Of a DNA stretch of 37,865 nucleotides, positions 19,672 through 23,173 are shown in pieces. The notes beneath the pieces were generated by a model. That model was not told the DNA's origin. It saw only the letters and a program-made list of their open reading frames with translations, and did not search any database. Source of the stretch: Candidatus Didemnitutus sp. (lineage in GTDB: Bacteria > Verrucomicrobiota > Verrucomicrobiia > Opitutales > Opitutaceae); assembly GCA_030681265.1 (NCBI GenBank), contig JAUXXD010000188.1:1-37865 (forward strand), given 5' to 3'. Made by a program: the position numbers and the translations under genes. Numbering within the stretch: the first letter of the stretch is position 1; each line of letters begins with the position of its first letter.

Positions 19672-20241
19672 TTAACTGCCCGGTTTGCTCGCGGGTATCG
19701 CCGCCAACTCCGGCGGGATTTGCTCCGCTGCGTAAGTGGGAAAACTTAATTCCAGCAGCGCATAAACCGGCACCGTGAACTTCGCTTGGCCCTGACTCCG
19801 ATCCACCAGCACCGCGACACCGACAGCTTCACCGCCGAGCCTGGCAATGATATCGAGACACTCCTGCACGCGACCGCCGCGCGTGATGACATCTTCGACC
19901 ACGAGCACTTTCTCGCCTGGCGTGAGCGTGAAACCGCGCCGCACGACGAGCACGTTATTTTCTTTTTCCGCAAAAATATAACGGCAGCCCGCCTGACGCG
20001 CGACCTCTTGGCCGATCACCAGACCGCCCATGCCCGGCGCCAACACCGTGACGAACGGCAGCCCGCGCAATTTTTCATGCAGCAACGCGCCCAATCGCTC
20101 GACTTCAGGCATGTGTTGGCAAACTTGGGCACATTGGAAGAAGTTCGCGCTATGCAGTCCGGAGCGCAGCACGAAATGACCCTGCAGCAGCGCCTTGGTG
20201 CGCTTGAAAATCTCCATTACCTCTTGTTGAACGGCATCCAT
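19672..20241 (-). CDS. pyrE: Orotate phosphoribosyltransferase
   Basis: The chosen start ATG 20241 gives 189 residues. Upstream in-frame codons exist, but they would run into the divergent gene at 20299 and add unrelated sequence. The phosphoribosyltransferase fold is shown by LRSGLHSANFFQCAQVCQ near the start, VLAPGMGGLVIGQEVARQ, and the PRPP-binding motif VLVVEDVITRGGR. It converts orotate and PRPP to orotidine 5'-phosphate in UMP synthesis. The gene is convergent with the HtrA-type gene and divergent from the HTH-MBL gene, with 57 bp between the two starts. Identification is sure; the exact start is likely. Confidence 0.93.
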   Translation of the reverse strand: MDAVQQEVMEIFKRTKALLQGHFVLRSGLHSANFFQCAQVCQHMPEVERLGALLHEKLRGLPFVTVLAPGMGGLVIGQEVARQAGCRYIFAEKENNVLVVRRGFTLTPGEKVLVVEDVITRGGRVQECLDIIARLGGEAVGVAVLVDRSQGQAKFTVPVYALLELSFPTYAAEQIPPELAAIPASKPGS

Positions 20242-20298
20242 GGCCGAAAACGCTGTGGCATTCGCCCGTGAAATGGAAATGATTTTTCGATCACCGTT

Positions 20299-21141
20299 AT
20301 GACGCCCCATGCCACCAGCCTCGAAGATGAACTGGGCGATGTCCTGGAAAAAGCGGCGCGGCACGCCGGCTGGAGTTACGAGAAACTCGCGGTCGAGGCG
20401 CAGGTGGAACTCAGCCGCATCAAGGATGCCCTCGATTATCGCGCCGACCTCAACTCAGCGGAACTAAATCGCCTCGCCCGCGTGCTGAACTTAAACGAAG
20501 TCGGTCTTTGCGCACTCGCGCAAAACGCGTATCCGCAACCGGAGATCGGCGGATTGCCGTTCTGCTTGCATCCGATTCGCATGCCCTTCGGCGTCGGCGT
20601 GGCCAACGCTTACCTCATCGCGTGCGGTAGCGACAGCGCGGTATTGTTCGACACCGGCGCGAGCGGGGCGGAGCTACGACGCGCGTGGCCGGCGAAAATT
20701 CGGCGCCTCGAAGCGGTGTTCGTGACGCATTACGAAGCAGAGCACATCGGCGGACTCGAAGAAGTGATGGCGGAATTTGGGCTCGCCCATTTCTATGGAC
20801 CACCGACGGGCCGTTGGCCGCGTTGTCGCGGATTGAGCGAAGGGGAATCCGTCGCGATTGGCGGCTTGGCGATCCAAGCGATGCAAACTCCCGGGCACGC
20901 GCCGGAGCACAACTGTTACGTCGTGAAACTCGCCGGAGCACCCGCGCGGCGCGAAGTCGTGATCTCCGGCGATCTGATTTTTGCCGGCTCGTTAGGTGGT
21001 GGCTATTTTTGTTGTCAACGACAGCTCAAGCACGCCCGTCGCGTGCTCGCCGCGCTGCCAGATGATGCCTTAATCGCACCCGGGCACGGCCCGCTATCGA
21101 CCGTGGCGAACGAACAGCGCTTCAATCCGTTTCTCGTTTAG
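20299..21141 (+). CDS. HTH domain fused to a metallo-beta-lactamase-fold protein with H-x-E-x-E-H motif
   Basis: The protein has 280 residues. Residues about 18-70 resemble a Cro/C1-type (XRE) helix-turn-helix: SYEKLAVEAQVELSRIKDAL then LNSAELNRLARVLNLNEVGL. Residues about 90-278 form a metallo-beta-lactamase fold. LFDTGASGAELRRAW starts it, and VTHYEAEHIGG gives H144, E146, E148 and H149. TPGHAPEHN gives H200, ISGDLIFAGS gives D225, and APGHGPLS gives H263. The usual Zn motif H-x-H-x-D-H is thus H-x-E-x-E-H, close to the H-x-E-x-D-H of the diiron site in flavodiiron proteins. No flavodoxin domain follows. Function is unknown. A metal- or oxygen-responsive regulator or a DNA-tethered hydrolase are inferences. 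Its last 20 nt overlap the end of the convergent histidine-kinase gene. Confidence 0.85.
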   Translation: MTPHATSLEDELGDVLEKAARHAGWSYEKLAVEAQVELSRIKDALDYRADLNSAELNRLARVLNLNEVGLCALAQNAYPQPEIGGLPFCLHPIRMPFGVGVANAYLIACGSDSAVLFDTGASGAELRRAWPAKIRRLEAVFVTHYEAEHIGGLEEVMAEFGLAHFYGPPTGRWPRCRGLSEGESVAIGGLAIQAMQTPGHAPEHNCYVVKLAGAPARREVVISGDLIFAGSLGGGYFCCQRQLKHARRVLAALPDDALIAPGHGPLSTVANEQRFNPFLV

Positions 21142-23173
21142 TTGGGGTGAATGGAGCGGTGCTCGCCATATCAAAGGTGGTTGCGGGAGACGCGGCTAGT
21201 GGCAGCAAAACGCGAAAAACTGCGCCGCGACCGGGCTGCGATTGCACTTCGAGGCGACCGCCTTGGAGCGTGAGTAATTCGCGGGCGATGAAAAGACCGA
21301 GACCGGACGAATCTTCGTTGGGACCGGTGGGTTTGGCGGAAAGACGCTGGCGGGGCGCAAAGATCTTGGCGAAATCGGCAGGGCCAAGGCCGGGGCCGGT
21401 GTCGCGCACTTCGGCAAAGGCCCACGCGCCGGACTCGCCGAGGGCGATAGTGATGGTGCCGCCGAGCGGAGTAAATTTCAGCGCGTTGCCGATCAGGTTG
21501 TCAAAAACCTGGCGCAAGCGTTCTTCGTCTGCTTCGACATGAGGAATGCGCGTAAGCGGCGGTTGCAACGAGAGGGATTGATTCTTCGCGGCAGCGACTG
21601 GCAGCAGACTGGCGATGGCGACGGTCGCGACGGCGGTGAGATCGAGTTCGGTGGTGTGCAGTTGCAGGTTGCCGTCTTCGATCGCGGACGCATCGAGAAA
21701 GTCGCGCACGAGATTCCGCATGCGTTCGGTGTCGGCCTGAATGCTTTTGGCCAGGCGGCGCACCGTCGCCTCATCCGCCGGCGCACCGGAAATCAGGCGC
21801 GCGGTGGCGTTGAGCGCGCTGAGTGGCACTTTCAAATCATGCGAAGCCATCTGGAGCATGCGCGATTTCAAGCGCTCCGCGACTTCAGCGCGTTCGCGCG
21901 CATTCTCAGTGGCGGCGCGCATGCGGCGTTCGGCGCGCAGTCGCACCAATTGCACGATAATGACCGAGCCGAAAATGGCCACGCCGCCGATCAGGGCGGC
22001 GGCGAGCGCGACGGTTTGGGAGCGCCGCCGACTTATCTCGGCGACCTTTAATGCTTGGTCGCGCTTGAGCAGTGTGATCTCGAGCTCGCGTTGTTCTTGG
22101 CCGTAACTGGCGCGCAGCTCCGACATGCGCCGACGGTCTTGCTCGCTGTTGATCTCCGTCCAGAGACGGGCGTGGCGGCGTTGAAAATCGAGCGCCTTGG
22201 CGAATTCGCCCCGCGCCTCATGAGTGAGCGCATACTCCTGGTAGATGTCGGCCAGCACTTCCGGACTTTCCAACGATTGCGAAATAAGGCGCGCGCGATT
22301 GAGGTGAACCAGGGCGTCCTCGGTGCGCCCCGCATTGCGGAACACGCGCGCGAGTCGACGGTGGGTGTTGGCGATGTAGCGACGGTATTTTAGCGCCTGA
22401 AATGTCGTCAGCGCTTGGTGCAAATAGTCGAGGGCGGTCACGTAGTCGCCTTGGCCGTCAGCGGCGAGGCCGAGATTGGTCAACGTTTCCGCGATGGCCC
22501 GGCGGTTACCGGTGCTTTGGCGAATCGCGAGTGCTTCCCGATGGAGCGCGATGGAGCGTTCGTATTGTTGCTCGCCGAGGTAGTAGTTGCCGAGGCTATT
22601 GAGCAGGCTGCCACGCATCCGCACGTCCTGCGCTTCGGCGGCAAATTGCAGGCCGAGATCGAGGTGGTGGAGGGCGTCTTCATTACGCCCGAAGCGCTGG
22701 TAAGAGAGTCCCAGCCCACCGTGAGTGCGGGCCAAGAGGGATTTGTCGTCGATCTTTTGCGCGAGGCGCAATTCAGCGAGGTGGGATTCGACCGAGGCTG
22801 GGTAGTCGGTGAGGTTCCAGTAGATGCGCCCCATCAAGTAGAGAAAACCAATCTGCAGCCGCTCGTCGTGGAGTGATTGGGCGCGGTGCAATCCCTGGCG
22901 GGCTTGCGCGAGCCCCTCGCTGTAGTCGCCTTGGCGCCGGAGCAGATTTACCCTGTTGAAGAGGACGCGCAGCTGCTCGGCTTCCGGCAGGGTTTTGTCG
23001 ATTGCCATCACCGTTTCCGAAGAATCGTCGGGATCCATTCCCTCCGGTTCCAATTCCACGGGCTGAGCCGCTACTGGCGCAGGGAGTGTCGTGGTCGTGT
23101 TCTTGGTCGACTGCGCCTGAACGTCGCCGCAGAGCCAGCAACCGAGGAAAAGGACGGCGAGACGATACCACAT
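21122..23173 (-). CDS. TPR-containing sensor histidine kinase
   Basis: The protein has 683 residues. A signal peptide (MWYRLAVLFLGCWLCGDVQA) is followed by a periplasmic part with about seven tetratricopeptide-like repeats (about 60-345), such as LLNSLGNYYLGEQQYERSIA and TLTNLGLAADGQGDYVTALD. A membrane segment lies near 385-408 (VALAAALIGGVAIFGSVIIV), then a short coiled linker. The HisKA domain has the phosphoacceptor H445 in MASHDLKVPLSAL. The HATPase_c domain shows DNLIGNALKFTPLGG (N box), DTGPGLG (G1) and SSGLGLFIARELL (G2). It senses a periplasmic signal by the TPRs and autophosphorylates in the cytoplasm. It starts 4 bp after the deacylase stop, so the two are cotranscribed. No receiver gene with an intact Asp lies nearby. 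Confidence 0.93.
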   Translation of the reverse strand: MWYRLAVLFLGCWLCGDVQAQSTKNTTTTLPAPVAAQPVELEPEGMDPDDSSETVMAIDKTLPEAEQLRVLFNRVNLLRRQGDYSEGLAQARQGLHRAQSLHDERLQIGFLYLMGRIYWNLTDYPASVESHLAELRLAQKIDDKSLLARTHGGLGLSYQRFGRNEDALHHLDLGLQFAAEAQDVRMRGSLLNSLGNYYLGEQQYERSIALHREALAIRQSTGNRRAIAETLTNLGLAADGQGDYVTALDYLHQALTTFQALKYRRYIANTHRRLARVFRNAGRTEDALVHLNRARLISQSLESPEVLADIYQEYALTHEARGEFAKALDFQRRHARLWTEINSEQDRRRMSELRASYGQEQRELEITLLKRDQALKVAEISRRRSQTVALAAALIGGVAIFGSVIIVQLVRLRAERRMRAATENARERAEVAERLKSRMLQMASHDLKVPLSALNATARLISGAPADEATVRRLAKSIQADTERMRNLVRDFLDASAIEDGNLQLHTTELDLTAVATVAIASLLPVAAAKNQSLSLQPPLTRIPHVEADEERLRQVFDNLIGNALKFTPLGGTITIALGESGAWAFAEVRDTGPGLGPADFAKIFAPRQRLSAKPTGPNEDSSGLGLFIARELLTLQGGRLEVQSQPGRGAVFRVLLPLAASPATTFDMASTAPFTPTKRETD

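Follow-up and report, generated by a model that had tools for sequence, protein, structure and literature searches.

A carboxylate-rich metal motif in an HTH–MBL protein of Opitutaceae encoded beside pyrE

In a stretch of 37,865 nucleotides from Candidatus Didemnitutus sp. (Opitutaceae, Verrucomicrobiota; contig JAUXXD010000188.1), hereafter the window, one gene joins an HTH-like N-terminal domain to an MBL fold whose first metal motif carries two glutamates. An initial annotation, made from the DNA letters, took this motif for a flavodiiron-like site and the protein for a diiron-type, perhaps O2- or NO-responsive, DNA-binding regulator without a flavodoxin domain. What kind of MBL domain is this, is its acidic motif a conserved property of the family, and does the HTH bind DNA? 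We approached these questions through profile searches, structure models, conservation and gene neighbourhood, with homologue searches that covered 273 genomes of the order, 387 genomes of the phylum and 26 loci from named genome records. The features discussed below are collected in Table 1.

Table 1. Features of the HTH–MBL locus, in window coordinates
Feature	Position	Strand	Basis
HTH–MBL gene, 280 aa	20299..21141	+	ORF and translation; orthologues found
Five-helix XRE-like domain, about residues 8-76	20320..20526	+	AlphaFold2, Foldseek, conservation
MBL-fold domain, about residues 86-280	20554..21138	+	Pfam, fold searches
Metal motif H144-x-E146-x-E148-H149 (reads H-Y-E-A-E-H)	20728..20745	+	Translation, alignment
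H200, predicted metal 1 ligand	20896..20898	+	56/56 clade B, 57/58 clade A
D225, predicted bridging ligand	20971..20973	+	56/56 clade B, 58/58 clade A
H263, predicted metal 2 ligand	21085..21087	+	56/56 clade B, 58/58 clade A
pyrE, orotate phosphoribosyltransferase, divergent partner	19672..20241	-	TIGR01367, 186 bits against a cut-off of 150
AT-rich conserved element GAAATGGAAATGATTTTTC	20270..20288		57-bp pyrE/HTH–MBL intergenic region

Results

Domain architecture

The AlphaFold2 model of the HTH–MBL protein, built from an input of 27 orthologues, has a mean pLDDT of 82 and consists of five N-terminal helices followed by an MBL fold; the Pfam family Lactamase_B covers residues 98-263 (E 2.5e-16). 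The Pfam match of the N-terminal domain is weak, with HTH_31 on residues 11-66 scoring 18.8 bits, below its 27-bit gathering cut-off, and 14 of 27 orthologues matching it at E 0.1. Modelled alone, this domain reached a pLDDT of 75, and a Foldseek search with it returned XRE regulators first (NHTF, C.BclI, ClgR and SinR; probability 1.00, E about 0.01, TM about 0.75), together with HppE and MPnS, two iron enzymes that contain an XRE-like domain. By AlphaFold2 and Foldseek it has the five-helix, lambda-repressor-like fold of XRE-type HTH domains. The chain stops at residue 280, directly past the MBL domain. The architecture originally described, an XRE-like domain and an MBL fold with no flavodoxin domain, is thus confirmed in each of its parts. 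The HTH–MBL gene overlaps by 20 bases (21122-21141) with a convergent minus-strand gene for a histidine kinase (21122-23173).

An acidic metal motif conserved in two families

Homologues of the protein fall into two clades, A and B, that share the HTH–MBL layout. The window gene belongs to clade B, which is found in Opitutaceae (family f1) and in f24, a second family of its order, and forms one branch in a tree of MBL domains (support 99/98). Clade A ranges widely through the order and class and across Verrucomicrobiota, and includes a paralogue in the window's own genome (L002, G000:C153:1119-1925) that has the motif HTHEDH and is 32% identical to the window protein. The gene just before this paralogue (L002 14-1027) resembles mnmA (tRNA 2-thiouridylase), a name given by eye.

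The motif H144-x-E146-x-E148-H149 and the residues H200, D225 and H263 all lie where the initial annotation had placed them, and residues 146 and 148 are acidic in every one of 56 distinct clade B sequences. Fifty of these, all from Opitutaceae, carry E/E (HxExEH), and the other six, from five genomes of f24, carry D/D (HxDxDH); L024 and L146, two f24 loci with HxDxDH, derive from one gene region. H144, H149, H200, D225 and H263 are invariant in all 56, in E/E and D/D sequences alike. Because the acidic pair and the remaining ligands are kept throughout the orthologues, the motif is not a product of chance or sequencing error, and residues 146 and 148 switch jointly, as expected of a common metal site. 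H204, invariant in clade B and Gly in most clade A sequences, was considered as a substitute for the lost histidine; we dropped it since it falls at the place of a histidine in the GHxxGH/GHxxxH pattern of glyoxalase II that is not known to be a ligand.

No HxHxDH sequence was found among the orthologues, but clade A, with the same HTH–MBL layout, mostly has this motif (His146 in 57 of 58 sequences, Asp148 in 58 of 58). The canonical homologues that the initial annotation had set as a refutation of its reading thus exist in clade A and are absent from the orthologues. The clade A outliers are L099, in which Cys replaces the second motif His (HICIDH), and L130, in which Gln replaces H200. The window protein and both clades have in one chain an N-terminal LEDxxxDxxxKA helix within the five-helix domain, the HTH and the MBL fold, and we take A and B to be of common descent because this helix is shared and the proteins align over their full length, with clade A proteins differing from the window protein in their motif, in having no pyrE neighbour and in overall sequence (about 30-37% identity). 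The HTH fusion is therefore kept both in the orthologues and in clade A, and since canonical-site clade A proteins have it too, the HTH is older than the acidic site and was not acquired with it. The tree of MBL domains alone resolves neither A and B as a single group nor the direction of a change from D/D to E/E. By sequence comparison, the HTH–MBL protein appears to be a lineage-specific offshoot of a Verrucomicrobiota-wide family of XRE-HTH and MBL proteins that belongs to the glyoxalase II lineage.

Kinship of the MBL domain

Profile searches did not lead to flavodiiron proteins (FDPs) or ODP: the top NCBIfam profile is TIGR03413 (GSH_gloB), with E 8.6e-18 and 64.6 bits, below its curated cut-off of 200.8. 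The best PDB matches by sequence and fold are BLEG-1, YcbL, glyoxalase II and persulfide dioxygenases, and VIA Z scores in the fold search are 17-20 for glyoxalase II, YcbL and BLEG-1 and 15-17 for flavodiiron proteins and ODP. PF19583, the Pfam family of ODP, does not match the window protein up to E 1 or anything in the window's own genome up to E 0.001. PF19583 hits of relatives, tried as a flavodiiron outgroup, have HxHxDH, are not FDPs and sit on very long branches, and so are uninformative on FDP kinship. The ligand spacing H149-51-H200-25-D225-38-H263 is found in 46 of 59 clade B rows of the alignment, and clade A has 50-52/21/38; in human glyoxalase II the spacing is about 51/24/39. 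The MBL domain is nearest to the broad glyoxalase II lineage by spacing, profile and fold, with the exact branching left unresolved by the MBL-only tree. It differs from glyoxalase II, YcbL and BLEG-1, whose ligand layout is similar, in having HxExEH where GloB proteins have HxHxDH, in lacking a C-terminal glutathione-binding domain and in carrying an extra HTH.

With flavodiiron proteins and ODP the window protein shares the MBL fold and the Glu that stands second in HxExDH, a position with Glu in 50 of 56 clade B sequences and Asp in six. If the aligned residues bind metal, its ligands would be four His, two Glu and one Asp, compared with four His, two Asp and one Glu in FDPs. The E. coli FDP ligands (His79, Glu81, Asp83, His84, His147, Asp166 and His227; PMC13133992) give a spacing of 63/19/61, unlike the 51/25/38 of clade B, and at the third motif position, Asp in FDPs, Glu stands in the window protein (E148) and in 50 of the 56 sequences, Asp being confined to f24. 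Because of this spacing, the third-position Glu, the missing PF19583 match and the lack of a flavodoxin domain, the protein cannot be counted in the flavodiiron family. Of the flavodiiron-like site first proposed, the composition class, four His and three carboxylates, holds up, but kinship to FDPs or ODP does not, as judged by PF19583, spacing and folds.

Carboxylates in this motif are also known from hydrolases. In SIE-1, a B3-E MBL, Glu replaces a motif-2 His, and the enzyme binds Zn, is little altered in structure and is active (PMC10318434); the Y2-AiiA lactonase has HxDxDH (PMC6146095). Both resemble the window protein in having a carboxylate for a motif-2 His but differ in being Zn hydrolases without an HTH that are changed at one position only, which in SIE-1 is the first motif His (116) and not the second. 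Zn sites, too, are on record with a Glu or Asp in the motif, and for the clade B site we can only infer iron. In FDPs, a His-to-Glu change has been linked to the holding of Fe(III), and cyanobacterial FDPs with altered ligands have lost metal (review, PMC7785958).

The pyrE neighbour and the intergenic element

A divergent, adjoining pyrE accompanies 51 of 56 testable distinct clade B genes, at a median distance of 79 bp, and the pairing spans both f1 and f24; two further neighbours in f1, genes for a ribose-phosphate diphosphokinase and a DegQ-like protease, were not seen near f24 loci. No pyrE was seen near clade A loci, many of which show ~450 bp of upstream sequence and about 20 several kb. 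The pyrE of the window is of the Thermus type, TIGR01367, rather than of the commoner TIGR00336 group. One genome of the same family (G181, 99% complete) has no clade B gene, and its best pyrE score against TIGR01367 is 56.6, compared with the cut-off of 150; the two genes were possibly lost together.

Between the divergent genes lies a conserved AT-rich element (Table 1), and the near-palindrome GAAATGGAATTCATTTC occurs at this intergenic site in one exact copy each in G196 and G202, and nowhere else in either genome. The element was considered as an operator of the HTH–MBL protein and rejected. In four genomes in which the gene and pyrE lie apart, the element remains upstream of pyrE, and none was seen in the new upstream region of the relocated gene; of eight genomes that have pyrE but lack an HTH–MBL gene, about five show a similar element in the pyrE upstream region. 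These comparisons were made by eye and not with a scored motif; the element-bearing pyrE upstream regions compared are those of L186, L189, L191-L193 and L229-L232, all from Opitutaceae. Because pyrE keeps the element where the HTH–MBL gene has moved or is absent, the element reads as pyrE's own, and the simplest reading would make it a promoter or control element of pyrE. The HTH–MBL protein might still bind it in trans.

The N-terminal domain as a possible DNA-binding module

The HTH of clade B is acidic, with a net charge of -4 to -10 (mean -6.2); seven HTH_3 (XRE) domains of the same genome range from 0 to +7, a rough comparison since the segments are of unequal length. Columns 37-39, which we take from an alignment by eye to match the base-contacting residues of the 434 repressor, rank with the most variable positions of the domain in clade B. 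On helix 1, E9, D10, D14 and K18 show little or no variation in either clade. Where the recognition helix ends, clade B conserves D43, A44, D46, Y47 and R48, which could be DNA contacts. The acidic charge, the variable base-contact positions and an element that is independent of the gene do not support the DNA-binding regulator originally envisaged. HppE and MPnS likewise fuse an XRE-like helical domain to a metal-dependent catalytic fold, but in these enzymes the catalytic domain is a cupin and not an MBL fold.

Discussion

Altogether, our results describe an HTH–MBL protein that belongs to the glyoxalase II lineage and whose metal motif has been rebuilt. A literature search found neither an HxExEH MBL protein nor an HTH–MBL regulator, although the absence is weak, most subscription papers falling outside its scope.

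We envision a scenario in which the motif shifted in clade B from HxHxDH, a Zn-type site of five His and two Asp, to HxExEH or HxDxDH. E146 and E148 are likely metal ligands as judged by alignment: H144, E146 and H200 would probably hold metal 1, and E148, H149 and H263 metal 2, with D225 bridging the two. That two hard metals, most likely iron, are bound is in our view about an even call. The protein might be a metalloenzyme, or a metal- or redox-responsive protein, in a process tied to pyrE, and its HTH might be mainly a structural or docking domain that acts via helix 1, as in the XRE-like domains of HppE and MPnS. Divergent pairing of this kind, here with pyrE, is typical of regulator genes and counts against such a reading. 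Taken as a whole, this reading, a dinuclear carboxylate-rich MBL domain with hard metals, iron the likeliest, in a pyrE-connected metalloenzyme or metal- or redox-responsive protein with a mainly structural or docking HTH, is a tentative one that we hold to fall somewhat short of probable.

The same gene arrangement speaks for a DNA-binding regulator with a diiron site that responds to O2 or NO; in the sharpest form of this idea, the protein would bind the 57-85 bp pyrE intergenic region and control both genes by its metal state. The XRE-like fold, matched best by regulators, the divergent pyrE at a short gap, the exact and single near-palindrome in two genomes and the FDP-like ligand composition all fit such a protein. 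We nevertheless think it unlikely, given an acidic HTH with variable base-contact columns, an element that stays by pyrE in the four gene-apart genomes and is present in gene-free ones, and an identical HTH–MBL layout with HxHxDH throughout the phylum. Similarly doubtful to us is a glyoxalase II-type hydrolase, with zinc or manganese in a site that tolerates carboxylates and carries out no redox chemistry. Hydrolases are the closest relatives by sequence and fold, H204 fits the GHxxxH pattern of glyoxalase II, SIE-1 is active with a Glu in place of a motif-2 His, and the lactonase Y2-AiiA has HxDxDH. Against this reading, residues 146 and 148 are both altered and the change is fixed over two families, while Asp148 is invariant in clade A, which suggests more than tolerance.

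A site that had drifted into a metal-free or degenerate pseudoenzyme would explain the loss of one His and of the usual Asp from the motif, and the cyanobacterial FDPs provide a case of metal loss with altered ligands. We regard it as scarcely credible here: the substitutes are always metal-binding carboxylates and the other ligands are kept in 56 of 56 sequences, the opposite of drift. A bolder version of the iron-binding scenario, in which a new diiron MBL class with an HxExEH site arose within the glyoxalase II lineage independently of FDPs and would couple pyrimidine synthesis to iron or redox state via the HTH and the divergent pyrE, seems to us improbable.

Clades A and B form a natural pair of equal domain layout, one with a hydrolase-type HxHxDH site and the other with a carboxylate-rich site, and the HxDxDH proteins of f24 are a further natural variant of the site. 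The pairing with pyrE provides a testable hint to the purpose of the protein in little-studied bacteria. Should iron be bound at the acidic site, flavodiiron-like centres would have originated twice within the MBL superfamily.
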